A stretch of 32,459 nt of DNA. Source: a virus. The notes below the pieces were generated by a model that worked only from the letters and a program-made list of their open reading frames with translations, was not told the DNA's origin and made no database searches. Below are positions 3,546 through 32,170 of the stretch, piece after piece. The stretch spans positions 1 to 32,459 of the IMG/VR virus record IMGVR_UViG_3300036859_001050; one strand, 5' to 3'. The translations under genes and the position numbers were made by a program. Numbering within the stretch: position 1 is the stretch's first letter; every line of letters begins with the position of its first letter.

Positions 3546-3648
3546 TGCACGATTCATGCTTTGAGTGCTATCCGTGCATTCTAATTCATAGTTGTGCATA
3601 GTGGTGCAAAGTTTTGCAAAGCGTTGCATTTCAAATAATAGAAAGTGC
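3546..3648. repeat. TGC array A, about 10-bp period
   Basis: TGC starts at 3546, 3557, 3566, 3575, 3595, 3605, 3615 and 3625, with another at 3646. The last four full steps are exactly 10 bp with the form AGTnnTGCAw. The array lies directly upstream of the HTH gene at 3277-3513. One TGC per helical turn means the same face of the DNA is presented repeatedly, which fits cooperative protein binding. Confidence 0.7.
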
Positions 3649-3679
3649 AATATGACCTTGATTATATCATAAATTGATG

Positions 3680-3698
3680 TTCTTTCATACTGAAAGAA
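3680..3698. promoter_or_regulatory. Perfect 8-bp inverted repeat, operator candidate
   Basis: TTCTTTCA and TGAAAGAA are separated by TAC. The 19-bp palindrome lies 13 bp upstream of a minus-strand TATAAT (3666-3661) and covers the expected -35 region of that promoter, which lacks a good -35 hexamer. This is the usual geometry for a dimeric repressor or activator site. The bound protein is unknown; TrmB or one of the HTH proteins are the local candidates. Confidence 0.5.
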
Positions 3699-3793
3699 TA
3701 TCCCCGTGTGTGGCATTTCTGCTCTATATCTAGCGTATTTCTGGCACATGGCGCGATTGTGGGTAAAACGTGAGAAAACGGCTCCATGATTGG

Positions 3794-3839
3794 TGCAAAG
3801 TGCAAATAAGTCGAGTGCAAAGTATTGCATAGTCATGCA
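3794..3839. repeat. TGC array B before the plus operon
   Basis: TGC starts at 3794, 3801, 3816, 3826 and 3836, the last three at exact 10-bp steps, with AGT between units as in array A. It lies about 55 nt upstream of the first gene of the plus-strand operon (ATG 3893). Probably bound by the same factor as the other arrays. Confidence 0.65.
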
Positions 3840-3892
3840 AAGTGAGTAAATGTGGGCATAGTCGCACTTCTACATTCTACCCCTTCTACAGT

Positions 3893-4117
3893 ATGGCCAC
3901 CGCCTCCACCCTCGAGAAACTCCTCGCAGAATGGCAGCCCAATATCTGGGAACTCAAGCACGAAGCTGAGATCCAAAACGATCACTGGATTGTGTACGGA
4001 TACCACGAGGCACATGACAAGGAACTGCACATCGAAGGGAAGACACCCCTCGAAGCGATGCAGAACTTCATAGCCAAGATGCAGTACCTCGATAGCACTT
4101 CTCCTGTCGATCTCTGA
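3893..4117 (+). CDS. Hypothetical protein, 74 aa
   Basis: A small protein starting MATASTLEKLLAEWQPNIWE. The middle is strand-like (WIVYGYHEAHDKELHIEG) and is followed by a helix (TPLEAMQNFIAKM). I do not recognise the family. ATG 3893 is chosen over ATG 3842 because the upstream extension is cysteine/serine-rich and overlaps array B. The leader is pyrimidine-rich with no Shine-Dalgarno. It is the first gene of an operon whose next two genes look like a recombination pair, so a role in phage DNA metabolism is possible. Confidence 0.6.
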   Translation: MATASTLEKLLAEWQPNIWELKHEAEIQNDHWIVYGYHEAHDKELHIEGKTPLEAMQNFIAKMQYLDSTSPVDL

Positions 4118-4145
4118 TCCTTTTTCCTTTACCCCTTTTATTTCC

Positions 4146-4946
4146 ATGCCTACAGCAGCACCAGCACCGGCACTCATGATCACGCACGGCGCGGATCTCA
4201 CATCAACGGCGCTCGAGAAGAACCTCGAGGAAACATCGAAAAAAGGAAAGCTCATGGACAAATTTATTAAGGAGAGCCTCAAAGAAGGTGTCGACTTCGA
4301 TAAGCCGTTCGCAGCGGCCGTGAAGAAGACTCTCCTGAAACCCGGCTCTGAAAAGGTATGCGTCCTCCTCAATCTGATGCCAGTCTTCAGAAAGGACGAG
4401 GAGACGATGGTGCACCTTTCGAGCGATGTGCGCGGCAGCAACGTCGCCTTCCTCTGTGAGCTTGTCCATCGAAGCAGCGGAACAAAGGTAGCGGAGGGAC
4501 GTGGTTCTGCAGCTCTCACTGAGCCGAACATCAAAGGGAACCTGAACTCGGCAATCAAGATGGCAGAGAAACGTGCACAGATGGATGCCACACTCCGCGT
4601 CGCCGCGCTTTCGGATCGCTTCACGCAAGACCTTGAGGATCCTGTCTATAAAGAGAAGATGTCCGAGCAAATATCTGATAAGCCAAATGATGTGCCTCCT
4701 CCTGCAAAGAGGCAGGCCGTCACACCGGCACAGGGCAAGCTGCTCTTCGATCTTTGGGAGGAGCTTGTGAAGATCGGAGAGGTCACCAGAGAGAAATCGG
4801 ACGTCACGCGAAGAATGACGCTCAGGAAACTCTACGGCGTCCGTTCCTCGAACGACCTCACGAAGGCACAAGCCTCGGATTTCATTGACCGCATGAAAGA
4901 GCGCATCCACAGAGTCAAAACCAAAACAAAGCCCTCCACAAAATAA
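4146..4946 (+). CDS. Putative single-strand annealing/recombination protein
   Basis: A 266-residue protein. It matches a family of phage and mobile-element proteins that I know by pattern: KPGSEK (65-70), an xGxGxA segment (about 118-122), N-x-AIKMAEKRAQMDATL (about 135-150) and FTQDLED (159-165). The C-terminal part (193-258) resembles the small helical tail of RecT/ERF/Rad52-like proteins (LFDLWEELVKIG, LRKLYGVRSSNDLTKAQASD). The family is usually annotated hypothetical. A DNA-annealing role is inferred mainly because a RecB-like exonuclease follows 39 nt downstream, mirroring lambda Red and RecET pairs. The leader is pyrimidine-rich and lacks a Shine-Dalgarno site. Confidence 0.6.
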   Translation: MPTAAPAPALMITHGADLTSTALEKNLEETSKKGKLMDKFIKESLKEGVDFDKPFAAAVKKTLLKPGSEKVCVLLNLMPVFRKDEETMVHLSSDVRGSNVAFLCELVHRSSGTKVAEGRGSAALTEPNIKGNLNSAIKMAEKRAQMDATLRVAALSDRFTQDLEDPVYKEKMSEQISDKPNDVPPPAKRQAVTPAQGKLLFDLWEELVKIGEVTREKSDVTRRMTLRKLYGVRSSNDLTKAQASDFIDRMKERIHRVKTKTKPSTK

Positions 4947-4985
4947 TTCCTCTCTCATTTTCTTATTTTCATTCCCCATTTCAAC

Positions 4986-5936
4986 ATGCTCACGCCTCAA
5001 CAAATCGAGCACTTCCCTGTAGCGCATCTGTCGCCCTCCGCCATCCGCCAATACCTCGGTGACCGGCAGGGATTCTTCAAGCGATACATACGGCTGGAAT
5101 TCGACGAGAAGCGCTCTCCGGCCGCCGTAGAGGGCACATGCGCCCACGCGATAGTTGCGGACTACTGGACTGCGCACAGCGAAGGCAAGGCGAAATCCTT
5201 TGATTGGGAGCGCGCTATGCGCGGACGTATCAATCACTTCTTCTCTCCTGAAAATCAGGAATACAGCCTCATCGATTGGGGTAAGACTGGCAGCGAGGAG
5301 ACCTCCCGCAAGAAGGTGGAAAAGATGATCGGGTTCTACATAGAAGAATTGCCCGACTACACCCCGATCACCGTCGAACAAACACTCATCTCCGATTTCG
5401 AAGATATGAAAAACAACACGCAGCCCATCGCCATCAAATGCGTCACGGACTTGGTGAACAGCCTCGGCAAAAAGAAAATCGGTATCGTCGACCACAAATT
5501 CACATCACGCATCAAGGAGCAAAATGAAGTCGCACCGGCATATGAGATACAGGCGTGCGCAAACTTCTTCGTGGTTCGTAAGCACTTCGGAGTGAACCCC
5601 GAATCAATGGTGTTCGATCAGATAAAAACGTCGCAAAACAAAGACGGATCACCCCAGCGTGTGCGCTATGAGATCGTCTTCACGCCAAAGATCCTCAATC
5701 GCTTCATCGTGCTATACCAGCGTATCGTTGCCGAACTCTCAGGCATGCCGCTCATCGATGAAGACACCGGCACGCTGGCCTTCCTCCCGAACCCCGATGC
5801 GCAATTCGGCGCTGAAGAATCATGGCTCGACTTCTGCGAGGAGGTCGATAACCAGAGGCAATGGACGATGGCCGACATCCGCCGCGTGCGCAATAACCGG
5901 TACTCAGCAGAGGGCGCTGAAGCACTCGATCTCTAA
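4986..5936 (+). CDS. PD-(D/E)XK exonuclease, RecB/Cas4-like
   Basis: A 316-residue nuclease of the PDDEXK_1 type. Visible core: LSPSAIRQYL (15-24) and the GTCAHAIV helix with His54, then E131, D155 in KCVTDLV, and D169-x-K171 in IVDHKFT, followed by a Y-x-x-Q-x-x-x-x-x-F helix (186-195) like the QxxxY motif of RecB nucleases. There is no terminal cysteine cluster, so an iron-sulfur cluster as in Cas4 is unlikely. It would act as a 5'-3' or processing exonuclease partnering the annealing-like protein upstream. ATG 4986 follows a pyrimidine-rich leader without Shine-Dalgarno. Confidence 0.85.
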   Translation: MLTPQQIEHFPVAHLSPSAIRQYLGDRQGFFKRYIRLEFDEKRSPAAVEGTCAHAIVADYWTAHSEGKAKSFDWERAMRGRINHFFSPENQEYSLIDWGKTGSEETSRKKVEKMIGFYIEELPDYTPITVEQTLISDFEDMKNNTQPIAIKCVTDLVNSLGKKKIGIVDHKFTSRIKEQNEVAPAYEIQACANFFVVRKHFGVNPESMVFDQIKTSQNKDGSPQRVRYEIVFTPKILNRFIVLYQRIVAELSGMPLIDEDTGTLAFLPNPDAQFGAEESWLDFCEEVDNQRQWTMADIRRVRNNRYSAEGAEALDL

Positions 5937-5977
5937 TTTCTCCTTCCTATGCCTAGGCAATAAGTTCTGGCCTGAAA

Positions 5978-6007
5978 TTGCAAATGTGGGGGGGGGGGGC
6001 GTATTGT
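5978..6007 (+). promoter_or_regulatory. Poly-G tract between -35-like and -10-like hexamers
   Basis: TTGCAA (5978-5983), an 18-nt spacer holding 12 consecutive G (5988-5999), then TATTGT (6002-6007) and a start codon at 6020. In phase-variable promoters of other bacteria (for example Neisseria porA) a homopolymer in the spacer changes length by slippage and tunes transcription. The same G-run is also in frame with an alternative ATG at 5984, so a translational effect is possible too. A 12-G run can also be a sequencing error in length. Confidence 0.5.
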
Positions 6008-6019
6008 TCCGACATTTCT

Positions 6020-6400
6020 ATGATTACTGCAAGTGCTCCCTATAGGGAAAAATTGACGTATATCGCAGAAGATGATCACTTCATCGCATCTACGATAGAG
6101 ATTCTCCTGAGAGAACACGGGGTAGAGGTGCAGGTGGCAAAGGATGGAGAAGAAGTGATCAAACTAATAGAAGAAAGATTGCCACACCTGTTACTTCTAG
6201 ATTTGCTTATGCCGCGAATGGATGGTTATCAAGTTTTAGCATACATACGAAATAAGCAGTACGTATTCCCGATCATCGTCGTAACGAATATGAGTTTAGA
6301 AGCTGACAAAGAATTGTCGTTAGACGTTAGCGACATCATTGTTAAGTGCAACCTCGATGAAGAGGAACTTTGGAATCGTATAAAGAAATTTCTTGAGTAA
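6020..6400 (+). CDS. Stand-alone response-regulator receiver domain
   Basis: A 126-residue CheY-like protein with every core residue: acidic pocket E17/D18/D19, phospho-acceptor D61 in LLLLDLLMPRMDGY, T89 in VVTN and K109 in IIVKC. It has no output domain. It should accept a phosphoryl group from a host histidine kinase and signal by protein contact, or act as a sink. ATG 6020 is used; ATG 5984 would add a short Gly-rich tail encoded by the poly-G run. The gene is visibly more AT-rich than its neighbours, so it is probably acquired cargo. Receiver domains are rare in phages, so it may modulate host signalling. Confidence 0.9.
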   Translation: MITASAPYREKLTYIAEDDHFIASTIEILLREHGVEVQVAKDGEEVIKLIEERLPHLLLLDLLMPRMDGYQVLAYIRNKQYVFPIIVVTNMSLEADKELSLDVSDIIVKCNLDEEELWNRIKKFLE

Positions 6401-6433
6401 GGTTTCCGATTTATTTTTTTCAACAACCTATGT

Positions 6434-6628
6434 ATGGAATACTCGTCAATGACCGACGCTCAGGTGATAGAACTGCTACGGCAGGCGCGAGAATTCCCTT
6501 CGGATATTCATTTGATCCATCGCATTTACAAAATGCAACGGGATGAATATCTAAAGGCGCAGAAACTGTTAGAAGGTCTCAAAATTCCGAAAGAACCTCA
6601 AGTCACTGAGGTCATTTCTATTTCCTAA
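6434..6628 (+). CDS. Hypothetical protein, 64 aa
   Basis: A small helical protein (MTDAQVIELLRQAREFPSD..., then IYKMQRDEYLKAQKLLEGLK). I do not recognise it. It follows the receiver gene by 33 nt and shares its AT-rich codon use, so the two probably arrived together. Its end overlaps the end of the convergent membrane-protein gene (6618-6881) by 11 nt, so no terminator separates the two strands. It might be a partner of the receiver protein, but that is only by position. Confidence 0.55.
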   Translation: MEYSSMTDAQVIELLRQAREFPSDIHLIHRIYKMQRDEYLKAQKLLEGLKIPKEPQVTEVISIS

Positions 6629-6881
6629 GTAACTTCTCGAGTTTATGAGCGAGGCCATAGCCGAGTAATGCGAGGAAGGCGGTACTCGCGCTACTGAGGG
6701 CATCGGGAAACTTCTGCACGAATTCCATAACGCCGACGTCGCCAGAGAGAAGAGAGCTAGCCAGCGCAGCAATAGCAGCAATGGCTGTGAGCAACCCCGC
6801 CAATCCAGCAAGGAAAGCACCGGCCGCGCCGATGAAGGATTTATATCCATTGAGGAACGGAAGAAGGTTAAAAATATTCAT
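6618..6881 (-). CDS. Small membrane protein, second holin/pinholin candidate
   Basis: An 87-residue protein. Residues about 15-47 form one long apolar stretch (SFIGAAGAFLAGLAGLLTAI and following) rich in Ala/Gly, and a second weaker apolar helix (STAFLALLGYGLAHKLEKLL) ends in a basic tail. It lies directly after the endolysin gene in the lysis cassette. Small Ala/Gly-rich two-helix proteins in this place are often holins or antiholins. ATG 6881 is preceded by a pyrimidine-rich leader. It has no sequence match I can name, so the role is inferred from topology and position. Confidence 0.55.
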   Translation of the reverse strand: MNIFNLLPFLNGYKSFIGAAGAFLAGLAGLLTAIAAIAALASSLLSGDVGVMEFVQKFPDALSSASTAFLALLGYGLAHKLEKLLRK

Positions 6882-6900
6882 ATAAAGAAGAGGGAAAAAA

Positions 6901-7461
6901 TTACGGCAAAGGAACGTTGAGACGCTCAAGCGCTCTTTGGAGCACCTTTGGCTTCTCGGCGGGTTTGAACTGGGGCATGGGCAAAGATGCGCCAGCGGCC
7001 ACCTGTTCGAGCGTGAGGCCGCCTGAATAGTGGAAATGCGGCTTATCCTGCCCCCATATGGCATATCCCCACGTTATGCCCAGTTCTTTGGCTATACGCG
7101 CGATAGTGTTGAACGGAGCCTCACCGTACCAAACGCTATACAAAAGCGTGCTGAGGCGCGTCAGCGGGGCTATATCTACGGCCAAACCGTGGCAGTGCCA
7201 CGAGTATGGGCACTTCACGTCGGTGACTGGCGGGACGTTATGGCGCTTAGGATCGTAGCCTGCCACCCACGGCCGACCTTTCCGGTATTGATCGAGCTGC
7301 TCTTCCGTCGTGCGCTTCCCACCGTCGTCTGGAATGCGGATGTAGATCCCAGCCATCGCAATTCTGCAGAAAAACTCTGTGAACAATCGCTGCGCCTCTG
7401 GACGCAAGTACCTGAGCTTTGCGAAATTTGCAGCCGTGAATTTTGAGAGCGCGACTTTCAT
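6901..7461 (-). CDS. Endolysin, M15-type L,D-peptidase
   Basis: A 186-residue protein with the peptidase M15 (VanY/L-alanyl-D-glutamate peptidase) signature: the KRTTEEQLDQYRKG region (49-62), then SWHCHGLAVDI (87-97; zinc ligands His89 and Asp96) and KPHFHY (140-145; His142/His144). It should cut the peptide stem of peptidoglycan at the end of infection. No signal peptide is visible, so release is expected through the holin. ATG 7461 overlaps the holin stop by 4 nt (ATGA), indicating coupled translation. A short C-terminal tail (PAEKPKVLQRALERLN) could be a wall-binding or regulatory end. Confidence 0.85.
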   Translation of the reverse strand: MKVALSKFTAANFAKLRYLRPEAQRLFTEFFCRIAMAGIYIRIPDDGGKRTTEEQLDQYRKGRPWVAGYDPKRHNVPPVTDVKCPYSWHCHGLAVDIAPLTRLSTLLYSVWYGEAPFNTIARIAKELGITWGYAIWGQDKPHFHYSGGLTLEQVAAGASLPMPQFKPAEKPKVLQRALERLNVPLP

Positions 7462-7799
7462 TCAGAGGATTTGAAGAAAATGGATTTGAAAATTGCGGAG
7501 ATGAGATTGAGCATCTCGATTCCCAGATACCCTCCAATGCCTGCAGCAATCACCGGCCACGTCTTATCGTCCGTCATTGTTGAAACGTAGAGAGCAGTCA
7601 TTGGACCCGCGAATCCTGAGATGATGCAGTTGGCAAGCAGCGCCAGAAGGAATGAAACAGGCCGCATGGGTTTTTTGTCTCGCATGTTTGATGAGAGGAA
7701 ACGCACGACGCCGCCTATTCCAGCGATGACAATCCAGCTCTTCGGAATGTTCATCCGCGAGACAGGTGTGCCGAGTGTTTGAGGGATGACGTAGAGCAT
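7458..7799 (-). CDS. Holin, LydA/phage holin superfamily III-like
   Basis: A 113-residue membrane protein with three probable transmembrane segments: about 20-36 (WIVIAGIGGVVRFLSS), 47-70 (VSFLLALLANCIISGFAGPM) and 82-106 (WPVIAAGIGGYLGIEMLNLI). The GGVVRFL start, the FAG turn between helices and the AGIGGYLGIE segment fit the LydA-type holins. It precedes the endolysin with a 4-nt overlap. Holins oligomerise in the inner membrane and time lysis. A short charged C-terminus (KSIFFKSSE) is typical. Confidence 0.75.
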   Translation of the reverse strand: MLYVIPQTLGTPVSRMNIPKSWIVIAGIGGVVRFLSSNMRDKKPMRPVSFLLALLANCIISGFAGPMTALYVSTMTDDKTWPVIAAGIGGYLGIEMLNLISAIFKSIFFKSSE

Positions 7800-7821
7800 G
7801 AAAATTACGGGGAAATATCAA

Positions 7822-8112
7822 TTATTCTTCGCTCCTCTCGGGTGGATCATCGGGCGGCTGCACCGATCCACGCGGAGGCGCGGGTTCTGTTTCCTCCTGT
7901 ACTTCCACCAGCTCGAAACCCTCGGGAACGGCAATCGTATTGCCAGCTCTGATACGAATCGGTTCTGCCTCTGTTCTGTTCTTCATCGGCGTCACCTGAA
8001 CGAGCACAATGTCCGTGCCATCGGTGACGGCGCGGTAGAGCGTCATGTCCGCGTACTTGCTGCCTTCTTTCGGAACGATGCGGGGAATGCTGTGGAATTC
8101 GGCGTGTCCCAT
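7822..8112 (-). CDS. Hypothetical protein, 96 aa
   Basis: A small beta-rich protein starting MGHAEFHSIPRIVPKEGSKY, with strands DIVLVQVTPM and AEPIRIRAGNTIAVP and a Pro/Glu-rich disordered tail (EETEPAPPRGSVQPPDDPPE). No family is recognised. It lies between the collar/fibre protein and the holin, where small tail-fibre accessory or chaperone proteins are common. The leader is pyrimidine-rich (TTTCCCTTTCACCTT before ATG 8112). Confidence 0.6.
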   Translation of the reverse strand: MGHAEFHSIPRIVPKEGSKYADMTLYRAVTDGTDIVLVQVTPMKNRTEAEPIRIRAGNTIAVPEGFELVEVQEETEPAPPRGSVQPPDDPPERSEE

Positions 8113-8139
8113 AAGGTGAAAGGGAAATAATAAAAGCGC

Positions 8140-9699
8140 TTAGGCGTATTTGATGACCATCGGGATCGTGAGGTACGGATTCATGATGTTGGGGTTCGCG
8201 TTCGACTGCATGCCGCCTGTATATGCAGGAGCGGATCCAGCGCCGGTCACCTGACAGCCTCCAGATTGCGTACCGCAAGCGCCTGTGGGTGTCTGGTGAG
8301 TGTGATCGATGTTGATGATGTCCGCGCCTGCAGAGCCACCGAGTCCTTTGCCGTTTGCGGTCGTGATGCGCGAGGCATTTGTGCCACCGAGGTTGTCGGG
8401 AGATACCGCATTGCGGCCGCGCGTATCGGGAAGATTGAACGTCGTACTTCCATCCCCGAGACCATACGGACAGTGGAACAGTGAATGAGTACCGCTCTGT
8501 GAGCCAGACGTGTTCACAGCAGAGCCGCCGCGCGTGGTTGAGACGCGGAAATCATTCGCGCTCAGTCCTGCAGATATGACGTAGTAAATCGTGTTTGCGC
8601 TGAGTCCCGTTGGGAGCGCGCCGGTCGTCGTGAAATAGACTGGATCGCCTTCGACGAGTCCGTGGCTATTCAGCGTGAAGACCGCAGGCGATGCGATGGT
8701 CACCGTGAAGTTCCCAAGGTTCGGCACAAGAACGTTGAATAGCAGAGAGTATGTCGAGCGCGAGAGCGCCTGTCCGTAGCAGAAAAGCCACGTCGGAGGA
8801 GCGGCTTTCGCAGGCCAGAATTTCATGGATCCAATTTCCTGACCATCGGGTGTATTCCCCGGTACTGTGATGAGCTTGAACACGTCATCTGTGCTGTCGT
8901 ATGTGATGCCGAACGTCATGCCCGCTTTGATATCGTTCGAGACCAGATCGATGTTGTTATGCTTCTTGATCGTTTTCGCTGCGAGACCATCGACGGCGAC
9001 GGTGGTTGTTCCTGTATTGTTATTCGCTGCCTTGAAGAACAACGTAAATTTATCCGCATAGGAGCTGATTTTCGGATCCAAAGCGATAGTGATTGCGTTC
9101 CCCATGCCACCGACAGTTCCGAATGAGTTTAGGAAACCCTGTCTCATTATCTTTTTCAAAACGCCATCCTTCACCTGAGTGAATGGCCGCATGTCCGTGA
9201 TCTGGTTGTCCGTGATCTGCGTGTCAGATGCTGGCACGCTGACTAGGGCGAGGGTAATGGCATTTGCAGGCTCGGCCGGTGCTGAAGGCGACCCTGCGGG
9301 TGTGCCAGCGATGTTTTCAATGATGGCGATGTTCGACGCACTTCCGTTGGGATTTTGAGAGACATCTATCCGCAGAACGATTCTGTCGATTCTCGGATTG
9401 GTTGTATCTGCTGCAGTGACGATGATGTTTTCCACTGCGTCGCTGTCAAAATGCACCTTGTACGTTTTCCCATGATTAACATTTGTATTGGTGATTTCTA
9501 TCAATGCTCTCCCCGGTGCGACATCCACAGTCATATTCGCCCCAGCTGCTCTCTGTGAAACACGAAATGCAGTCCCGACACCCTCAATGACTCCTTCCTC
9601 GAGATATGCCCGCTCAAACTGCATCAGCTCGTAGTCGTTCCAACCGGGGACAACCGTGGCCGATACGGAACTGCCGATAATGGAGATTCGCTTTGTCAT
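8140..9699 (-). CDS. Tail collar/receptor-binding fibre protein
   Basis: A 519-residue protein. Residues about 10-175 resemble the baseplate/fibre N-terminal domain of siphophages (WNDYELMQFERAYLEEGVIE and an alternating beta pattern up to ITDMRPF). About 190-280 is a fibre repeat domain with a TTVAVDGLAAKTIKK strand. About 288-519 is a phage tail-collar domain: PPTWLFCYGQALSRSTYSLL, then GDGSTTFNLPDTRG and HTHQTPTG. The collar is split by an insert (about 330-408) with an Ig-like TIYYVISAGLSANDF pattern. It likely carries the receptor-binding tip. ATG 9699 is used; it comes 4 nt after the leader hairpin T-run. Confidence 0.8.
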   Translation of the reverse strand: MTKRISIIGSSVSATVVPGWNDYELMQFERAYLEEGVIEGVGTAFRVSQRAAGANMTVDVAPGRALIEITNTNVNHGKTYKVHFDSDAVENIIVTAADTTNPRIDRIVLRIDVSQNPNGSASNIAIIENIAGTPAGSPSAPAEPANAITLALVSVPASDTQITDNQITDMRPFTQVKDGVLKKIMRQGFLNSFGTVGGMGNAITIALDPKISSYADKFTLFFKAANNNTGTTTVAVDGLAAKTIKKHNNIDLVSNDIKAGMTFGITYDSTDDVFKLITVPGNTPDGQEIGSMKFWPAKAAPPTWLFCYGQALSRSTYSLLFNVLVPNLGNFTVTIASPAVFTLNSHGLVEGDPVYFTTTGALPTGLSANTIYYVISAGLSANDFRVSTTRGGSAVNTSGSQSGTHSLFHCPYGLGDGSTTFNLPDTRGRNAVSPDNLGGTNASRITTANGKGLGGSAGADIINIDHTHQTPTGACGTQSGGCQVTGAGSAPAYTGGMQSNANPNIMNPYLTIPMVIKYA

Positions 9700-10923: not shown

Positions 10924-10924
10924 A

Positions 10925-11868: not shown

Positions 11869-11919
11869 AAAAACCCCGCCGCCCGAGGGCGGTTGGGTTT
11901 CAAGTATGCCTTTATTCTA
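11869..11919 (-). promoter_or_regulatory. Promoter-like -10 plus leader hairpin before Dit gene
   Basis: TAGAAT (11919-11914) overlaps the end of the tape measure gene region and is followed by a very stable hairpin, CCGCC-CTCG-GGCGG flanked by AAACCC and GGGTTT, ending in TTTTT (11873-11869). ATG 11860 comes 8 nt later. No good -35 is seen (ATGCGC at the 17-nt position, inside coding sequence). The CTCG loop and arms match the hairpin at 22098. Confidence 0.5.
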
Positions 11920-14930: not shown

Positions 14931-14964
14931 AGCATAATTCTGCATTAGTTTGCATTACTTTGCA
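14931..14964. repeat. TGC array C, exact 10-bp period
   Basis: TGC starts at 14941, 14951 and 14961, with AGC at 14931, all at exact 10-bp steps, of the form nnTTTGCATT. The array lies 12 nt upstream of the tape measure start codon and between it and the chaperone gene. It matches arrays A, B, D and E. Confidence 0.7.
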
Positions 14965-16787: not shown

Positions 16788-16884
16788 AAAAAAGCCCCGC
16801 CGTCGGAGACGGTGTGGCTTCGTAGAATGGGAAACAAAAAAAGCCGCCGCGCGCAGGCGGTATGACTTCGTTGCACTCAGTATA
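16788..16884 (-). promoter_or_regulatory. Tandem leader hairpins with promoter-like -10
   Basis: TATACT (16884-16879), then two terminator-like hairpins in series. The first has CCGCC/GGCGG arms with seven T (16842-16836). The second is GCCACACCGTC with GACGGCGGGGC arms around TCCG and six T (16793-16788). ATG 16780 comes 7 nt after the second. No good -35 is visible at 17 nt (TTTCCT). This is the only doubled example in the window. Confidence 0.5.
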
Positions 16885-17958: not shown

Positions 17959-18336
17959 CTATGCGGGGGTGCCGACTACGGATGGAAGGATATCGATCTG
18001 ACCGGCCTTTGCGGTCATCCATGAACCATCTGCCATTTTCAGGCGCAACTCGTACTGCTTATCGTTCCCCGCATGTCCTTCGGTTGTTTCTCCGAGTTTC
18101 ACCCTGATTTTTCCGTTCGCCTCATCGAGCCACTCAATATCCGATGGATCCTCATCTGTGAGCGCGATGAAAGGGGTGCTTTCAGAGACATCATTTTTTA
18201 CGGAAAAATACACACGACCGGTAGCGGTTTTTGGGATCGGCTCGCCCTGTAGTGCCGCATTTGACCACCGGTCGCCGTATGTGAGCGTAAAGTCAAAAAA
18301 GCCGCGCTCGGCTTCATATACTTTCAGATTGGCCAT
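17959..18336 (-). CDS. BppU-N-like/Ig-like structural protein, 125 aa
   Basis: A 125-residue beta protein starting MANLKVYEAERGFFDFTLTY. It has the alternation of phage BppU N-terminal-like domains (TGRVYFSVKN, ending in KAGQIDILPSVV), an Ig-like fold often fused to receptor-binding parts. It lies next to the 827-residue repeat protein. A TACAAT (-10-like) lies 7 nt before the ATG, and a terminator-like hairpin with six T lies inside its first codons (18295-18314). The role is inferred from pattern and position. Confidence 0.5.
   Translation of the reverse strand: MANLKVYEAERGFFDFTLTYGDRWSNAALQGEPIPKTATGRVYFSVKNDVSESTPFIALTDEDPSDIEWLDEANGKIRVKLGETTEGHAGNDKQYELRLKMADGSWMTAKAGQIDILPSVVGTPA
18295..18314 (-). 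promoter_or_regulatory. Terminator-like hairpin inside a coding start
   Basis: AAGCCG-AGCG-CGGCTT followed by T within codons about 8-14 of the gene at 17959-18336. It resembles the leader hairpins but sits after the start codon. It may be a coding by-product of E-A-E-R-G-F-F, so weak. Confidence 0.35.
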
Positions 18337-22097: not shown

Positions 22098-22181
22098 AAA
22101 AAACCCGCCGCCCGAGGGCAGTGGGATTTCAGTGGAGAAGTGATGTGCTTCTATCATACTCCACCCCCTCGGCCGCCTCAA
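22098..22181 (-). promoter_or_regulatory. Promoter plus leader hairpin before the 22086 gene
   Basis: TTGAGG (22181-22176), 17 nt, TATGAT (22158-22153), a small GAAG/CTTC hairpin, then CTGCC-CTCG-GGCGG with CCCAC/GGCGGG outer pairs and TTTTTT (22103-22098), followed by the ATG 11 nt later. It has the same -35 and -10 hexamers and spacing as at 9704-9782. Confidence 0.6.
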
Positions 22182-26248: not shown

Positions 26249-26269
26249 CCGCTCGTTGCGCTTGAGCGG
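26249..26269. other. Leader hairpin CCGCTC/GAGCGG before scaffold
   Basis: A 6-bp GC stem with a 9-nt loop in the leader of the scaffold gene, downstream of the T-run hairpin at 26313. It adds structure to the 99-nt leader; no T-run follows, so it is not a terminator. Confidence 0.45.
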
Positions 26270-26312
26270 GGAAGCGAGTCGAGGTTTAACGACTCCCGAG
26301 AAGTCGACATAC

Positions 26313-26388
26313 AAAAAGCCCGCACAGCCTTTCGGCAGTTCGGGTTTCGGTACGCAATTATGATACGCCCTACAGTCAATGACTGCAA
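26313..26388 (-). promoter_or_regulatory. Promoter plus leader hairpin before scaffold gene
   Basis: TTGCAG (26388-26383), 17 nt, TATCAT (26365-26360), then CCCG-AACTGCC-GAAA-GGCTGTG-CGGG and TTTTT (26317-26313). The -35 matches the one before the methyltransferase. The ATG of the scaffold is 99 nt further on, longer than in the other cases. Confidence 0.6.
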
Positions 26389-26434
26389 ATGCGATTCAAA
26401 AAAGTTCGTGAGACCGCATCGGGAAGCGATCTCT

Positions 26435-27304
26435 TTATGCGTTTGCTACTGTCCTCCTGAAGTATGCGACTGCTTTGCTGTAGAGACCGGGGCGCTGCAT
26501 TTGCAGCTCCTCGAAGCTCACAGGCTGTACAGTGTGGCGACAGTTGGGATGCGTCGATGCGGGAGGGAGCGCGTGTTGCAGGAGATCGATGTACTTTCTC
26601 TCTTCCCATTCATTGCAGATGTCATTGCCATCGATGTCTGGCCTGAGCGTGGGGAATATCGCAAACCGCCGACCGCTCGCAAGCAGCTGGTTTTTCGCAC
26701 CGAGGTTATAGGCTGTGACGTTCTGTGAGCGCACGAGAAGATTTGCATACGCCTCGAGACTGAACTTCTGTCCAAAGCCATTCTTTGCTTTTAGCACTGT
26801 GAAGCCCTGATCCTGCAGTTCCCTGACAATTTCGCTCTGCGTTCTTGAGGACGAAGCACCCTGAATGAATCCCTTGATCACGCGCTCTTGGATTCTGCGT
26901 TTCTCGATGACCGCACGGGTTGCATCTCGCTGCAGACCGCTCATGGTTGTGCCAAAGTCGAGAAACGCTTCCTGTATCAAACTCTTCACCGCCTCCTCCG
27001 GCACACCGACAAAACGCACCGAGAAATCCTCGTCTTCCTCGAATTCTTTTATCTGATCAAACGTCTCCTTGGCTCCTGCGTTCATTATGCGTGGGATTGA
27101 ACGCTCTGCCCATGTGAATGCCTTCACTTCCAGTTTCGATATTACGAATCCAATGGCCTTTATTTGCTGCTTTTGGAATTGCGAAAAACTACCGCCCTTT
27201 TGATTGGCCACGATCTCGATCAGCTCTTTTTGCGCTTCGCGGAAGAGCCGAAGGATCTCATCGTTACTCGCGCCCTTCTCATTGATTTTCTGGAAGATCG
27301 ACAT
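26435..27304 (-). CDS. Minor head protein, SPP1 gp7/Mu gpF-like
   Basis: A 289-residue protein, MSIFQKINEKGASNDEILRL. Residues near 240-275 hold CNEWEERKYI, then PPASTHPNCRHTV, the Cys/His cluster of the Mu F-like family. The N-terminal helices (VISKLEVKAFTWAERSIPRI) bind the portal. It follows the small membrane protein with TGATG coupling (27304), so ATG 27304 is used. A longer start to 27373 would run into that gene. Confidence 0.78.
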   Translation of the reverse strand: MSIFQKINEKGASNDEILRLFREAQKELIEIVANQKGGSFSQFQKQQIKAIGFVISKLEVKAFTWAERSIPRIMNAGAKETFDQIKEFEEDEDFSVRFVGVPEEAVKSLIQEAFLDFGTTMSGLQRDATRAVIEKRRIQERVIKGFIQGASSSRTQSEIVRELQDQGFTVLKAKNGFGQKFSLEAYANLLVRSQNVTAYNLGAKNQLLASGRRFAIFPTLRPDIDGNDICNEWEERKYIDLLQHALPPASTHPNCRHTVQPVSFEELQMQRPGLYSKAVAYFRRTVANA

Positions 27305-27513
27305 CAGAAAATGAAGAAAGCGATGCGTATGGTCACAAGCAGCGTGAACACCATAAGCAGACACACACCCCACATGACGGCGAGTGCTAGTAACACTTCC
27401 CGCCTACGATATTCGAGAAGAGCATCGATGGTTCGCTTCACTTTCTCTTCCTCGAACGCCTCACTAGCCCTGTGTGGATTGGGAAAAATGCTGGAGAAGG
27501 GTTTGTGCATCAT
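27304..27513 (-). CDS. Small membrane protein between portal and minor head
   Basis: A 69-residue protein, MMHKPFSSIFPNPHRASEAF. Residues 23-35 are a charged helix; the last 30 are one apolar transmembrane stretch (VLLALAVMWGVCLLMVFTLL...). It lies between portal and minor head, overlapping the latter by 1 nt (TGATG). A membrane anchor in the head gene region is unusual. It may tether assembly or be a moron; the role is unknown. Confidence 0.65.
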   Translation of the reverse strand: MMHKPFSSIFPNPHRASEAFEEEKVKRTIDALLEYRRREVLLALAVMWGVCLLMVFTLLVTIRIAFFIF

Positions 27514-27521
27514 TTGGAGGG

Positions 27522-29027
27522 TTATGGCTTATCGCCCATTGCGGCGAGGGTTTCCTGCACGCGAGTTTTCATCGCTTCCTCTTCTTCGTCTTGAATGCGG
27601 CCTAATTCCTCTTCAAGTTCGTCGCCCTCTATGCCTTGGAAGCTACCGACTGCCGTCTCACGCGATGCCAAGCCGCGACCGAGAGCATCGCCCCAGACCC
27701 TCTCGTCCATTTCCCAATCTTTGGGAATGCCCTGATCGAAGGTAACGCTCATCACGAGCTTATCTGCCTCCTTCTCGCCCTCGATTTTCAATCCGATGCG
27801 CATGATATCTCTGATCGCTTCATCATATTTCCTCTCGTAGCGTCGAACCCGCTTGAGGAAATTCATCATGCGCGTGCGTAGCGTCTCTGCGCGCTCGGCC
27901 TGTCCTCCCTTCTCATCCTCGAGTACAAAACTGTCTGGCGTCTGTGTGAGCTTTGCGATCTCCCTGAGCGTCATTTCCATGTGTTTGAATGCCTGCTCAA
28001 TGAGCGGATTTTCATTCGTGATGTACCGCGCGTCGGGTTCTCCCGCTTTTGCAATCAATACCTCGACATCGGAACTCTGCACCTTTCCCGTTTTTGGATC
28101 CCGTACCACCGAGCCATCGGGCACTTGAATTTTAGCGTTCAGATGTTTGAGGAATTGTATGGAGATTTGCGTCAGTCGGTCGTTCAGCTCTTCGAGTAGC
28201 GGCATGACGCGCTTGAAGATGGATTGTCCGTATCTCTGTATAACGGTCTTTCGCAGATTCACCGTCACAAGCGGTAGTTCATCAATCTTCGTATCCTGCC
28301 TGTATCGCAGCGTTTCTGCCTCCGTACCGCTATCGCTTTTCTCCACCACCTTTTGCACGTTGTCGCCCTTGGGAACGAGATCCAACGTTTCGAGAGATGC
28401 GGGATCGCCAATCTTCCCGCCCTTATCCTCAAAGAGTGCATACTCGATGATGGCGGTCTTTTCCTCCATGAAATAATCCTCCACGTACACGTACTTTTTA
28501 CTCACGCCATCGGCCTGCTGGTGCGTGAGGTAGCTGACAATGCGCACGTTGGTGGGATCAGCGCCGTTCGGCACTCCCGACCAATTCGGGAACCAGTAGG
28601 AGTATGGAATTTCCTCCACGACGGCCTCGTTGCCTTTGCCAAATAGTTTGAAATGCGTGTGGCCGATTGCCTGCAACAGCTGCGAGGATTCCTCCATGCG
28701 CTCCTGAAGCCGGTTGTCATCGATGATCCTATCGATCTTCGTTTTGACCTTTTCCTTTCCCTCCGCTTCGATTGCCACCTGAAAGGGTTCTCCAAAAAGG
28801 AAGTCTGTACCGACGTCGACGATGAGGGGTGCGACATTGAGTGCCTTTGCGAGTATCTCCGCTTTCTTTTTGTCATTGCTGAAGTACTCCTTCAGGCGAA
28901 ACGCTCCCTTGTCCGTTTTCCCTTCGTAATCGAACGCATCGGAATTGAGCAGCTTGAAGTACCGATCTTCAATCGCAACGCGCTCCAGTTCCTCACTCGA
29001 GGGGAAGTCTTTGAGATCGTAAGGCAT
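27522..29027 (-). CDS. Portal protein, SPP1 gp6-like
   Basis: A 501-residue protein between terminase and minor head. It has the SPP1 gp6-type profile: an N-terminal part (KALNVAPLIVDVGTDFLFGE), a clip/wing region with ELPLVTVNLRKTV, and a stem-helix region (MTLREIAKLTQTPDSFVLED, then RAETLRTRMMNFLKRVRRYE). The acidic C-terminus (EEELGRIQDEEEEAMKTRVQ) faces the inside. ATG 29027 lies 12 nt from the last TGC of array D. Confidence 0.88.
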   Translation of the reverse strand: MPYDLKDFPSSEELERVAIEDRYFKLLNSDAFDYEGKTDKGAFRLKEYFSNDKKKAEILAKALNVAPLIVDVGTDFLFGEPFQVAIEAEGKEKVKTKIDRIIDDNRLQERMEESSQLLQAIGHTHFKLFGKGNEAVVEEIPYSYWFPNWSGVPNGADPTNVRIVSYLTHQQADGVSKKYVYVEDYFMEEKTAIIEYALFEDKGGKIGDPASLETLDLVPKGDNVQKVVEKSDSGTEAETLRYRQDTKIDELPLVTVNLRKTVIQRYGQSIFKRVMPLLEELNDRLTQISIQFLKHLNAKIQVPDGSVVRDPKTGKVQSSDVEVLIAKAGEPDARYITNENPLIEQAFKHMEMTLREIAKLTQTPDSFVLEDEKGGQAERAETLRTRMMNFLKRVRRYERKYDEAIRDIMRIGLKIEGEKEADKLVMSVTFDQGIPKDWEMDERVWGDALGRGLASRETAVGSFQGIEGDELEEELGRIQDEEEEAMKTRVQETLAAMGDKP

Positions 29028-29038
29028 GATAATATTTT

Positions 29039-29072
29039 TGCACTAAATTGCATCACTCTGCAATGCTTTGCA
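29039..29072. repeat. TGC array D before portal gene
   Basis: TGC starts at 29039, 29049, 29059 and 29069, exactly 10 bp apart, with the last unit reading CTTTGCATATAT as in array E. It fills the gap between terminase and portal and lies 12 nt from the portal start codon. Confidence 0.72.
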
Positions 29073-29090
29073 TATATTTCAGATAGCGCA

Positions 29091-30680
29091 CTACATTGAA
29101 TCCAGTCCCAGCTCACTCTTGGTGGCCGATCCTCGTCCTGCACGCAGCGCGTTCGGAATCAAATAGAGTCCGATGGCAGATTCCATCACCGTATCGTCTT
29201 TGTACCCCTCCATTGCGCAGTATTTCCCTTTGTCATCGATGATGAAGCGGAGGAATTCCTGCTGGGCAATCTTGTCATAGATTTTCACCTCCTCCTCGTC
29301 GATGAGCTGCGCGAGGTGATCGATGATGAGCGGTTTCGTTTTGAGGTTCGTGTACCAACCCCACTTCGTTTGCAGTTTCTTGCTCTTGTGATCGACTGTT
29401 TCCGTCGTGTGAATCATGCCGTGGGGATAGGGAACACCGTCCATGCGAACGTGCTCCACGAGGTTATTGATGACGGTAAGACCATGATCCGTCGCCTCAA
29501 TTGCAATGTACGCTGTGTTGTATTCCATGCCCAAGCGATACGCGATCTGATGCACTTTTGCATATGGCCATTTCCCTCGGAACGCGCATACCTTCTGGAG
29601 CGTCTTGCAGTCCCATACGCCGATAGAGGTGTAATCGGTTCCTCCTTCTGCCCCCTCTCCATCCAGCTGCTCTGCGCCTGCTCCCGATGCACAGTCCACG
29701 GATACGAGATAGCGTCTGTCTTTGATCGGCCGTATCCAATACTTCAACCGGCCTTCCATCTTCGTGACGATAGGTTTACGGATGACCCAATCCATAATCT
29801 TCTCACGGTCGAACGGTGACTTGCCAGTGGTGAGGAATGCCTCTTCTGCTGTGCATGGGAACTCCTGTTTGAACTTCTTACGCCTTGAAGGATCTCGGAG
29901 TTTTCGGCGACGCCATGCGATATTCCCGAGCTTCATGTTCGGCACACCCAGCAGCTTTTTCTCCTCATGGGTAAGCGTCTTCTTGAACTTCTCTTCATTT
30001 TCGATCTCATCGCAGTAGTCGGCGTGATCTTGGAAGCCGAAGAAGAGAGAATGGTAATCGCTCAGATGAGCAACGGCATCTTCCCATGCTTCGTAGAAGT
30101 TCCCGCCCACACCGTTGGCAGTTGTCTCTCCCGTCACATCGCCACCCTCTACCACGGCGTTCAGTGTCGCGGTCAGCGCATTCTCGGCGTCTTTGATGTG
30201 CGCCCATTCGGAAACGTGCAATCCATGGATGGTGTCAGAGCGCACCTCAAGCGCCACATAGATGCGTGAATCCAGTTCCTCGAAATACAATTCATTGACA
30301 TTGTCGTACTTCGCCTTTGGCTTATTCCATACGCGCCCATCGGCGAGCGTGAAGGAATCGGGGCATGACTCGTATGCAATCTTGATAATGCGGAAGAGTT
30401 TTTTGAGCGAGTCGCGTTTGTGGGCGAGGATGACCGTCGTATAGTTTCGGTTGAAGAGTGTCTTATCGAGGTGATAGATAAGACAGAAGGTCGACACTCC
30501 TTCCTGACGTGCCTTGAGGATCAAAATTAGATGCCATTCCATCAGTTCTGCTTTGATCCTTTTTTGGATTTCGTTCAGTTTAAGCTTCTTCTTCACGCCG
30601 GGGATTTTGGTCTGGATCTTGTAGAGGTGCTCGATGCGCCACCATTTGTTCCGCATGCGTTCTTGATCTATTGGATGCAT
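29091..30680 (-). CDS. terL: Terminase large subunit
   Basis: A 529-residue ATPase-nuclease. The Walker A-like KARQEGVST (56-64), ILAHKRDSLKKLFR (84-97), Walker B LHVSEWA (154-160; Glu158) and coupling motif GETTANG (184-190) mark the motor. The nuclease has VSVDCASG (Asp329) and AIEATDHG (Glu395). It packages DNA through the portal and cuts it. ATG 30680 is 9 nt past the small subunit stop. The early MRNKWWRIEHLYKIQTKIPG lead is typical of this family. Confidence 0.93.
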   Translation of the reverse strand: MHPIDQERMRNKWWRIEHLYKIQTKIPGVKKKLKLNEIQKRIKAELMEWHLILILKARQEGVSTFCLIYHLDKTLFNRNYTTVILAHKRDSLKKLFRIIKIAYESCPDSFTLADGRVWNKPKAKYDNVNELYFEELDSRIYVALEVRSDTIHGLHVSEWAHIKDAENALTATLNAVVEGGDVTGETTANGVGGNFYEAWEDAVAHLSDYHSLFFGFQDHADYCDEIENEEKFKKTLTHEEKKLLGVPNMKLGNIAWRRRKLRDPSRRKKFKQEFPCTAEEAFLTTGKSPFDREKIMDWVIRKPIVTKMEGRLKYWIRPIKDRRYLVSVDCASGAGAEQLDGEGAEGGTDYTSIGVWDCKTLQKVCAFRGKWPYAKVHQIAYRLGMEYNTAYIAIEATDHGLTVINNLVEHVRMDGVPYPHGMIHTTETVDHKSKKLQTKWGWYTNLKTKPLIIDHLAQLIDEEEVKIYDKIAQQEFLRFIIDDKGKYCAMEGYKDDTVMESAIGLYLIPNALRAGRGSATKSELGLDSM

Positions 30681-30688
30681 AGCGAGTT

Positions 30689-31321
30689 CTAAAGTGGCTC
30701 ATCAGTCTCGCCCTTTTTTCTCTTGTGCAGCTCTTCTGTGGTTTTTGCTCGGGTGTCCTCCTCCTCGAATTCCTCGTAGCTGGCGGCATTCGCACCAATA
30801 TTCCTATTCGTCTGCTGCGTGAGGCGCTCAGGCTGCCCAAGAGCGCGGAAGTGCATGCGATAGAAACGATCAACCGACTCCATGGACCCAAAAAGTTTTG
30901 TGAGTCTTCTCTCCGCCTCTCTCGCCCGTTTAGGATTCCCTGAGTGCAACGCCTCGACATCTTGCTTAAGTGTCTTACAGAAGACTTGCATCACCCCTTC
31001 AAAGGTATGAACGATATCGTCGAGAATGTGCTGCTGCTTCCTCAGTCGTTCTTCATGAAATTCCTTCCACTGTTTGGACTCTTCCACTTTGAGACGCTCA
31101 ACGAAATTATGCTCAAGCGCATATCTCTCCCATGTCTGACGCGTCGAGGGGACACGATCATCGGCAGCATCCGACGCACGGCGCATAGCTTCAGCGACTT
31201 TTCCGCCAGCAGCAGCCCAATACTGATAGAGGATCTCAGACTCGTACTGTCGGAGATCGGGCTGTTTTTGGTTCGTTTTGGTTCGTTTTGGTGCGATGGT
31301 GTGCGAGCGCTTCTTAGACAT
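30689..31321 (-). CDS. Terminase small subunit-like protein
   Basis: A 210-residue protein placed directly before the large subunit. After a basic start there is an HTH-like region (YWAAAGGKVAEAMRRASDAA, then TRQTWERYALEHNFVERLK) followed by long helices and an acidic tail. It should recognise the packaging site and recruit the large subunit. The ATG 31321 leader has no Shine-Dalgarno; a GC hairpin lies 27 nt upstream. Confidence 0.68.
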   Translation of the reverse strand: MSKKRSHTIAPKRTKTNQKQPDLRQYESEILYQYWAAAGGKVAEAMRRASDAADDRVPSTRQTWERYALEHNFVERLKVEESKQWKEFHEERLRKQQHILDDIVHTFEGVMQVFCKTLKQDVEALHSGNPKRAREAERRLTKLFGSMESVDRFYRMHFRALGQPERLTQQTNRNIGANAASYEEFEEEDTRAKTTEELHKRKKGETDEPL

Positions 31322-31347
31322 TGGGTATAATGGGAAGGGATAGAAAC

Positions 31348-31383
31348 GAGGGAGAGGCGCGCTTGCGCACGTCCATCTCCCTC
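31348..31383. other. GAGGGAGA/TCTCCCTC hairpin before terminase
   Basis: An 8-bp perfect stem with an inner GCGC/GCGC stem. No T-run follows on the minus strand. It sits directly before the small terminase gene, where packaging (cos/pac) sites often lie; could also be a leader structure. Confidence 0.4.
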
Positions 31384-31414
31384 TAAGGTCTCCTTCTGCA
31401 TTGGCGCGGGGTCT

Positions 31415-31561
31415 CTAGTCGCGTGCTTCGCTGACTGTTAGCAGGCGGGCGGATCGAGCCGCACTGATCGCCGTGCTGGTGCGCAACGCGCTCGGCACGC
31501 CATCCTTACCAAGCACGGGGCAATGAACTGGCCGAGTAAGGAATGAGACTGTCTCATGCAT
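31415..31561 (-). CDS. Possible small protein, 48 aa
   Basis: MHETVSFLTRPVHCPVLGKD begins the frame, with a basic end (ISAARSARLLTVSEARD). Its ATG at 31561 overlaps the upstream stop by 8 nt, so coupling is possible. The frame could extend to 31603. No family is recognised; the region is GC-rich and the coding status is uncertain. Confidence 0.35.
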   Translation of the reverse strand: MHETVSFLTRPVHCPVLGKDGVPSALRTSTAISAARSARLLTVSEARD

Positions 31562-31898
31562 TGGGAGCTTGGTCGTAGGGTCTGGAAGGTATGAATGTTG
31601 CATTCGTGATGGTCTGCATCCTCTTGAGTTTTGATTGCATCGATGCGTGGATCAGCAGAAATTTTTCTTCGATGAGAATCCAGTAGAAGTACCGCCCATC
31701 GCGCTTAGATTCAATGAGAACAACACCATCTCTGACTGCATACTTGAAGTGCAGACCCTGAAAGCTGGCAAGTGTTGGAAATGCGCCAGTGAGCTTTCGG
31801 AATGCATTTGTGACATCATCCGTTGGGAGTGTTTCTTGCCTGTGAAATGGAGCGGATGAATCCGTCATGGCTTTGCAGGAGCTTCGGTAGGTGTTCAT
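31554..31898 (-). CDS. Hypothetical protein, 114 aa
   Basis: MNTYRSSCKAMTDSSAPFHR begins the protein. A core with aromatic strands (FKYAVRDGVVLIESKRDGRY, FYWILIEEKFLLIHA) suggests a small beta fold, followed by a basic helix. I do not recognise it. ATG 31898 follows the HTH stop with no gap (TGAATG). It lies in the small regulatory-type block before terminase. Confidence 0.6.
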   Translation of the reverse strand: MNTYRSSCKAMTDSSAPFHRQETLPTDDVTNAFRKLTGAFPTLASFQGLHFKYAVRDGVVLIESKRDGRYFYWILIEEKFLLIHASMQSKLKRMQTITNATFIPSRPYDQAPNA

Positions 31899-32126
31899 TC
31901 AGGGTGCCTTCTTCCTGCTGAATCGTTTGCGCACAAAATCTTCGGCATCCGACTTCTTGATTCTCCACAAATTCAGGCGGCCTCCGTCTGGTTTGAAATT
32001 CGCGCTGGGAAGTTCCCCTGACTGGAGGAACCTCACAAGGGTTCTCTTGCCCACAGGAATGATCTTTGAATCAATTAATTCCTGTAATGATAGAAATTCG
32101 CCGGAAGTGTCGGTAGTTGCCCGCAT
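31899..32126 (-). CDS. HTH (excisionase-like) DNA-binding protein
   Basis: A 75-residue protein. EFLSLQELIDSKIIPVGKRT is the first helix pair, LVRFLQSGELPSANFKPDGG the recognition helix and wing, and WRIKKSDAEDFVRKRFSRKK a basic terminal helix. It matches the helix_turn_helix_17 pattern. ATG 32126 is chosen; a TATAAT lies about 14 nt upstream (32145-32140), and TGC array E overlaps the -35 area, so it may regulate its own gene. The transcript would be nearly leaderless. Confidence 0.7.
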   Translation of the reverse strand: MRATTDTSGEFLSLQELIDSKIIPVGKRTLVRFLQSGELPSANFKPDGGRLNLWRIKKSDAEDFVRKRFSRKKAP

Positions 32127-32146
32127 GGATTTATACTGGATTATAA

Positions 32147-32170
32147 TGCTATACTTTGCAATACTTTGCA
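32147..32170. repeat. TGC array E upstream of HTH gene
   Basis: TGC at 32147, 32157 and 32167, exactly 10 bp apart (ACTTTGCAAT then ACTTTGCATA). It overlaps the minus-strand TATAAT at one end and lies where a -35 would be. A 16-mer continuing from the last unit (32166-32181) recurs inverted at 2362-2377. Confidence 0.7.

Follow-up and report, generated by a model that had tools for sequence, protein, structure and literature searches.

Helix-phased TGCAAAGTnn arrays at gene starts of a phage genome as candidate operators of its late promoters

Five gaps at gene starts in a 32,459-nucleotide phage sequence (the window, meaning here the whole stretch of DNA that was analysed) carry arrays of a directional 10-bp unit, TGCAAAGTnn, oriented towards the assigned gene or operon, and three of these gaps precede late virion gene groups. 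Our overall reading, to which we give roughly even chances, is that the arrays are promoter operators for a small phage winged-helix protein, most likely of the HTH_17 class, that would activate the late genes. Repeat operators are already known from phages, and what is new here is a multi-promoter design, in which one repeat is common to several promoters of a phage with no recognised Alt/Ltr protein. The host belongs probably to the phylum Patescibacteria.

Phasing and position of the arrays

An original prediction, made from the letters of the window, had claimed a 10-bp periodicity of TGC at five sites, and this periodicity is real. TGCA is repeated three times or more, with steps of exactly 10 bp, at 3595 (four copies), 3816 (three), 14941 (three) and 29039 (four), and TGC, not TGCA, recurs three times at exact steps from 32147, so that the phased-run scan recovered the exact steps claimed for the arrays at 14941, 29039 and 32147. 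A phased run of this kind appeared in none of 500 dinucleotide shuffles, and 12 pairs of TGCA lie 10 bp apart against a shuffle mean of 0.8 and a shuffle maximum of 5. A weight matrix of two adjacent units (TGCA is present in 15/15 of the units used) returned the same five sites and nothing else above the null maximum. Since non-coding DNA makes up 6.5% of the genome and yet includes 100% of each of the five arrays, a confinement expected by chance alone at about 1e-6, coding DNA is free of the pattern; the same periodicity in shuffled or coding DNA, which would have spoken against the prediction, was seen in neither.

Array 1 (3575..3634, plus strand) reads TGCATTCTAA TTCATAGTTG TGCATAGTGG TGCAAAGTTT TGCAAAGCGT TGCATTTCAA, then AATAAT. 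It had been proposed to span 3546-3648; the exact phase is limited to 3575-3634, where one unit is degenerate (TTCATAGTTG), and the TGCA at 3546 and 3646 are out of phase. Flanked by a leftward HTH_17 gene and a rightward operon, it lies directly downstream of a leftward promoter-like site with TATAAT (3688-3661). Array 2 (3794..3845, plus strand) consists of an isolated TGCAAAGTGC, then TGCAAAGTAT TGCATAGTCA TGCAAAGTGA, upstream of the rightward operon, whose first ORF (3893-4117) is followed by GemA-like and PD-(D/E)XK exonuclease genes; the steps proposed for 3794-3839 are exact at 3816-3836, but the copy at 3794 stands 22 bp upstream. Both arrays (3.5-3.8 kb) are oriented towards the rightward operon. 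For the run at 3595 this is so although the leftward HTH gene also adjoins it.

The remaining arrays are on the minus strand. Array 3 (14931..14964) reads TGCAAAGTAA TGCAAACTAA TGCAGAATTA TGCTAATTTAGTAGC-ATG of the tape measure gene, and array 4 (29039..29072), which fills the 63-bp gap between TerL and portal, reads TGCAAAGCAT TGCAGAGTGA TGCAATTTAG TGCAAAAATATTATC-ATG of the portal gene; the first unit of each is 45 bp from the start codon, and the fourth TGC of each begins 15 bp before the ATG. Array 5 with its promoter (32126..32170) reads TGCAAAGTAT TGCAAAGTAT AGCAT-TATAAT-CCAGTATAAATCC-ATG of the HTH_17 gene heading the terS-terL operon, with a perfect TATAAT 25 bp from the first unit. 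The array foreseen at 32147-32170 is upstream of this gene if translation starts at the ATG at 32126, the most likely start; a longer ORF (31899..32171) begins inside the array.

Late promoter layout and candidate regulators

Compared over the three late promoters (HTH–terS–terL, portal and tape measure), the distance from the first unit to the start codon is 45, 45 and 44 bp, and -10-like hexamers (TATAAT, TTTAGT and AATTAT) each start 25 bp into the array, those of portal and tape measure with only a 4/6 match to TATAAT. A row of two to four direct repeats stands just upstream of each putative -10, whose position is predicted from sequence, and neither a sigma-70-like -35 nor a -35/-10 pair was found on the gene strand of the late arrays. 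To judge by sequence, array and -10 together resemble a promoter cassette that depends on an activator and varies the theme of the direct-repeat operators bound by Alt/Ltr at late promoters. The binding sites of Ltr activators are rows of about four direct repeats, imperfect in sequence, and the four of TP901-1 Alt lie between -76 and -32 (PMC13123087). The likeness to these systems (TP901-1 Alt, Sa3int phi13 Ltr, RinA/ArpU superfamily) is a row of repeats that closely precedes a late -10 and stands before terS/endonuclease and structural genes; in contrast to them, the array-bearing phage has repeats at three separate late groups and in the early region, its arrays come closer to the -10, no Alt/Ltr/ArpU protein is recognised, and its unit is 10 bp as against 18 bp for the repeats of phi13 Ltr. 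The DNA upstream of the late arrays is AT-rich and has room for a repressor position, an observation that counts against an activator.

The window encodes three HTH_17 proteins (Xis/BldC class), of which HTHa is above the Pfam cut-off and HTHb and HTHc are just below it. HTHa (3277..3513, minus strand; HTH_17 at 1.7e-7, weak excisionase and Cox-like PHROG matches) is leftward, adjoins array 1 and is a candidate regulator. HTHb (31899..32126, minus strand; HTH_17 at 9e-6, 26.3 bits against a 27-bit cut-off, weak excisionase PHROG match) is the first gene of the packaging operon, itself under array 5, and a candidate array-binding regulator. Its predicted structure has a mean pLDDT of 57, with excisionases among the top fold matches, none of them significant, and owing to this low confidence it is not used as proof. 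HTHc (2011..2223, minus strand, with a presumed start) is the third HTH_17/Rv2175c-type winged-HTH protein. A PDB sequence search with HTHa and HTHb gave no matches. Alternative candidate binders are a TrmB-type winged-helix regulator (2398..3171, minus strand; PF01978, 4e-7) and an 86-aa protein of no known family (32199..32459, minus strand), which lies directly upstream of array 5 in the usual position of an Ltr late activator and is modelled, with moderate confidence, as a wingless helical bundle. The PHROG and Pfam scans of window proteins gave no match to an Alt/RinA/ArpU/DUF1492-type activator, a search by sequence profiles that Ltr families without sequence similarity could escape, and no integrase, in a window that may be a fragment; no replication initiator was recognised among the proteins scanned.

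BldC binds head to tail on direct repeats, one protomer per turn, and forms filaments (PMC5859096; PMC11963761), while RdfS can activate transcription and also attenuates its own promoter (PMC11963761). A class that includes BldC, RdfS and Xis is known to occupy direct repeats with one protomer per turn. The likeness of BldC (Streptomyces) and RdfS (ICE) to our candidates lies in small HTH_17-class winged-helix proteins, a variable repeat number and, presumably for the candidates too, one protomer per turn; BldC differs in its AT-rich 9-bp repeats and loose specificity, as against the well-conserved TGCAAAGTnn. Excisionases of the lambda Xis, P2 Cox and Pukovnik Xis type, which share the fold class of HTHa, HTHb and HTHc, bind cooperatively to phased direct repeats (PMC11963761) and act chiefly at attachment sites, whereas the phage arrays mark gene starts and no integrase is recognised.

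Cooperative protein binding on one face of the DNA, as originally proposed, is the best reading of the exact phasing, common orientation, gap confinement, the constant spacing of 44-45 bp from three start codons and the resemblance to late-activator operators, while the binder and the activation we infer. In the mechanism we propose, a small phage-encoded winged-helix protein, most likely HTH_17 (Xis/BldC-type) with HTHb or HTHa as best candidates, would fill the directional sites head to tail, one per helical turn. In the promoters of the late groups (HTHb-terS-terL, portal, tape measure), the sites would stand in for the -35 and continue into the -10, and the bound filament would therefore recruit host RNA polymerase, so that the genes for packaging, head and tail come on at the same time, presumably late. 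HTHb would be a member of its own regulon, and arrays 1 and 2 in the 3.5-3.8 kb control region would bring the HTHa gene, along with the rightward operon, under the control of this protein as well. More tentatively, an excisionase-fold HTH_17 protein, not one of the Alt/Ltr type, may be the late switch of a Patescibacteria phage, its head-to-tail filament on TGCAAAGTnn rows giving each late gene group a portable promoter cassette. If the operator reading is right, the one word TGCAAAGTnn would mark the entire regulon of the phage, so that sequence would reveal the promoters and the probable activator, and three small proteins would suffice for a test in E. coli; the excisionase/BldC class would be extended to late-gene activation, and a handle would be gained on gene control in phages of a phylum with few cultured members. 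The arrays suggest that helix-phased direct repeats are usable as a late-promoter signature in uncultured phages.

Relatives and arrays in other genomes

The nearest relative found (L271/L358), with 60% identity in TerL, 56% in portal and an unchanged order of the late genes, is free of TGCA pairs spaced 10 bp apart and has no HTH_17 in its 36.6-kb record, and its TerL and portal ORFs are 9 bp apart, compared with 63 bp in the array-bearing phage. Absence in close relatives had been named as evidence against the prediction, and the arrays are indeed absent at TerL 60%, yet HTH_17 is absent there too, which points to a lineage-specific regulator-operator pair and not against function; this co-absence, set against the presence of both in the window, comes from one relative only. 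A distant relative in G166 (TerL 34%) is also without arrays. Single-protein scans with HTHa, portal and TerL returned no close relatives, a methyltransferase scan returned only methyltransferase relatives, and in GenBank phages TerL matches were all below 60% identity, with no matches for portal, capsid and TrmB.

In unrelated phages, phased TGCA arrays stand beside Alt/ArpU/DUF1492-like late-regulator genes in 8/69 cases, against 1/71 for phased CATG; the regulator-neighbour test (7/68 against 1/71) gives a Fisher p of only 0.03, under a model with a selection bias, 5/7 of its training regulators being from the TGCA set. Such arrays occur ahead of a -10, at the stop codon of Alt/ArpU-like genes. 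Viral contigs hold at least 119 TGCA x4 stretches against 90 of CATG x4, a global enrichment that is at most weakly shown, and for this reason a single array elsewhere means little and the regulator-neighbour comparison is more telling. HTH_17 genes are not generally adjacent to phased TGCA arrays in other phages, the association being weak: a match within about 300 bp, itself weak and partial, was seen in 4/50 records.

A Parcubacteria contig (L232, JACQLU010000087.1) has two TGCAAAGTnn-type arrays, TGCAAAGTAA TGCAAAGTGA TGCAAATTTC and TGCAAAGTAT TGCAATGTGA TGCAAAGTAG, both preceding a DNA methyltransferase gene. It differs from the window in its gene content (methyltransferase, ATPase, nuclease-like), among which late phage genes were not recognised, and has no HTH_17. 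Host-wide use of the array was rejected: with 2 mismatches allowed, the array has no other copy in the genome of L232 outside that contig, and it is found in 4/380 genomes of its phylum at up to 1 mismatch, its order and class being represented by one genome each.

Alternative explanations

That the arrays are operators bound by something other than HTH_17, such as an unrecognised Alt/Ltr-like activator (e.g., the 86-aa protein encoded at 32199-32459), the regulator of TrmB type or one from the host, is possible if doubtful. It would fit the absence of sequence similarity among most Ltr families, the Alt/ArpU-like genes that accompany phased TGCA arrays elsewhere, and the two arrays before the methyltransferase gene of an HTH_17-free Parcubacteria contig; however, the 86-aa protein has neither a family match nor a wing in its model, and the scarcity of copies in the genome and phylum of that contig argues against a host regulator. 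An HTH_17 protein could instead polymerise over promoters and start codons as a repressor, silencing the late genes as well as its own, for example in lysogeny. The final TGC in the arrays before portal and tape measure, so near the start codon, the location of array 1 directly downstream of the HTHa promoter-like site, and the self-attenuation of RdfS (PMC11963761) are in its favour, but the best -10 at array 5 is downstream of the units and not upstream, the gene strand before the late arrays lacks a sigma-70-like promoter and an integrase was not recognised in the scanned proteins, and we regard repression as unlikely.

Replication-origin iterons, or integrase/excisionase arm sites scattered over the genome, are very improbable, since three arrays precede late structural genes with a constant spacing to the ATG and neither an integrase nor a replication initiator was recognised in the scanned proteins, even though HTH_17 belongs to the fold class of excisionases, arrays 1 and 2 form a group in the early control region, and phased TGCA arrays in three other records (L122, L129, L160) adjoin, by eye, apparent tRNA attachment sites. 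Chance or a functionless simple tandem duplication is hardly credible: phased arrays of other tetranucleotides do exist in phage collections, as the CATG x4 stretches illustrate, but five same-unit arrays in a 32-kb genome, all in gaps, are at odds with the shuffles and with the expected gap confinement, and non-core positions vary between units of one array.

It had also been suggested that the arrays and a set of leader hairpins are two control systems dividing the genome between them, a division that was not established. The number of terminator-like hairpins is raised (34 against 20.4, sd 4.2), but several of them look like ordinary intrinsic terminators.

Phased TGCA arrays in the window

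The window contains 199 copies of TGCA, and 12 pairs of this word are spaced 10 bp apart, compared to 0.8 in dinucleotide shuffles. Moreover, exact 10-bp-step runs of three or four TGCA were found four times in the window and never in 500 dinucleotide shuffles, and thus the proposed periodicity of TGC, one word per helical turn, was confirmed against shuffled sequence. The repeated element can be described as a directional 10-bp unit, TGCAAAGTnn: TGCA never varies among the 15 units considered, most of them continue with AAGT, and the final two bases are free. When the window was scored with a weight matrix of this unit, the null maximum was exceeded at exactly five sites. Units are arranged in five arrays, two on the plus strand (array 1, 3575..3634; array 2, 3794..3845) and three on the minus strand (array 3, 14931..14964; array 4, 29039..29072; array 5, within 32126..32170). 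According to the gene models made in this analysis, only 6.5% of the window is non-coding, and all five arrays are located wholly inside this small share, so that the pattern is absent from coding DNA. The arrays are real, and very probably functional operators.

Gene layout and promoter-like geometry

Late genes form a leftward block comprising terS, terL, portal, minor head, SU10-like capsid, tail genes, tape measure, Dit, and M15 endolysin, while the early operon is rightward, with GemA-like and PD-(D/E)XK genes, and the left end of the window carries a ParB-methyltransferase and small regulators. Position 1 of the record is exactly a leftward stop codon and position 32459 exactly a leftward ATG, as if the window had been cut at gene borders from a longer contig.

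Array 3 is located upstream of tape measure, array 4 upstream of portal, and array 5 upstream of the HTH_17 gene at the head of terS-terL. In the gene direction, array 3 consists of TGCAAAGTAA TGCAAACTAA TGCAGAATTA followed by TGC, array 4 of TGCAAAGCAT TGCAGAGTGA TGCAATTTAG followed by TGC, and array 5 of TGCAAAGTAT TGCAAAGTAT followed by AGCAT. Counted from the first base of unit 1, the start codon lies 45 bp downstream in arrays 3 and 4 and 44 bp downstream in array 5, and offset 25-30 is occupied by AATTAT, TTTAGT, and TATAAT, respectively. If this hexamer is the -10 element, transcription would start approximately 37 bp into the array, producing a leader of about 8 nt, and unit 1 would span -37 to -28, the place of a -35 box. 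A search of the gene strand at the late arrays found no standard sigma-70 pair. Such short leaders are plausible, since few genes possess a Shine-Dalgarno-like leader when the gene starts of the whole window are judged by eye. Pyrimidine-rich leaders, such as TTTCCCTCTATCCATC-ATG, are recurrent at these gene starts. GC-rich hairpins with T runs downstream of them are also present within the late block, at 11873-11892, 16794-16812, 22105-22121, and 18298-18315 (minus strand), and terminator-like sites in the window number 34, compared to 20.4 (sd 4.2) in shuffles.

Arrays 1 and 2 are both placed in a divergent control region, with units reading rightward. Array 1, beside the gene HTHa (3277..3513, minus strand), is also just inside a leftward promoter-like site, a weak assignment given that one site was found and 1.2 were expected. 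In this leftward promoter-like site of HTHa, the -35 is overlapped by an inverted repeat, TTCTTTCATACTGAAAGAA, at 3681-3702, possibly the operator of another regulator. The early region further encodes a lone CheY-like response-regulator receiver domain at 5978-6400 on the plus strand (PF00072, E 4e-21), directly preceded by a G run at about 5987-5999, for which phase variation and an artefact of assembly are both conceivable.

Phased words in other phages and a candidate binder

The phasing of a short word is in itself not rare: a scan of viral contigs for four copies at 10-bp steps gave at least 119 stretches for TGCA and 90 for CATG. The two words were compared for their neighbours by a profile of Alt/ArpU-like late regulators, known phage activators of late genes that act on direct-repeat operators. 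Such a gene was found within 400 bp of 8 of the 69 distinct TGCA arrays among the matches listed, versus 1 of the 71 CATG arrays. Among the same matches, eight of the nine regulator genes in those TGCA loci were near an array, and in most of these loci the array straddles or abuts the stop codon of the regulator, with a -10-like hexamer downstream of the array. In one phage locus (L141), a second phased array with a different word, CATACTTTGT CGCACTTTGG CATACTTTGT and then GGTATAAC, is located at 3471-3545 directly after the Alt/ArpU-like gene, and a CATG-word phased array is also present in a locus from another phage (L365). Phased late operators with several different words seem to exist.

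The simplest reading is that the arrays of the window are operators of this kind with a different protein. Their use in late-gene activation is probable. Three HTH_17-type proteins are encoded in the window, namely HTHa, HTHb (31899..32126, minus strand), and HTHc (2011..2223, minus strand), and the chance that a protein of this type is the array binder is about even. Two members of the HTH_17 class, BldC and RdfS, bind DNA head-to-tail with one protomer per turn (PMC5859096, PMC11963761), and RdfS is capable of promoter activation (PMC11963761). In the proposed mechanism, a filament on units 1-3 would end in a protomer placed to meet RNA polymerase at the -10, and the HTHb operon would be self-reinforcing, because HTHb itself lies under array 5.

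Relatives and putative host

Scans with single proteins revealed no kin of the window phage. Portal and TerL matched one genome, from the phylum of a Parcubacteria MAG, and a two-sequence TerL alignment built with the match in that genome was used to reach one good relative (L271), with 60% identity in TerL, 56% in portal, and 54% in capsid, in which the late gene order of the window is kept. No TGCA pair at distance 10 was found in L271 or in L358, the rest of the DNA of that relative, and HTH_17 had no match at E 0.1 in its 36.6-kb record. Furthermore, the TerL and portal ORFs are separated by 9 bp in L271 versus 63 bp in the window. These three differences suggest that the arrays were either gained in the window lineage or lost in the L271 lineage, and that they may co-vary with HTH_17, as judged from this sole comparison. 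Absence from close relatives, the refuting outcome named beforehand, is thus seen in this relative, but with HTH_17 missing as well it speaks for a pairing of regulator and operator specific to one lineage, and not against a function.

Two arrays of the TGCAAAGTnn-type unit are located ahead of a methyltransferase gene in a Parcubacteria contig (JACQLU010000087.1), and such arrays are absent from the remainder of that genome and from nearly all of the 380 genomes of its phylum. Taken with the portal and TerL matches, this contig points to a probable host within the Patescibacteria.
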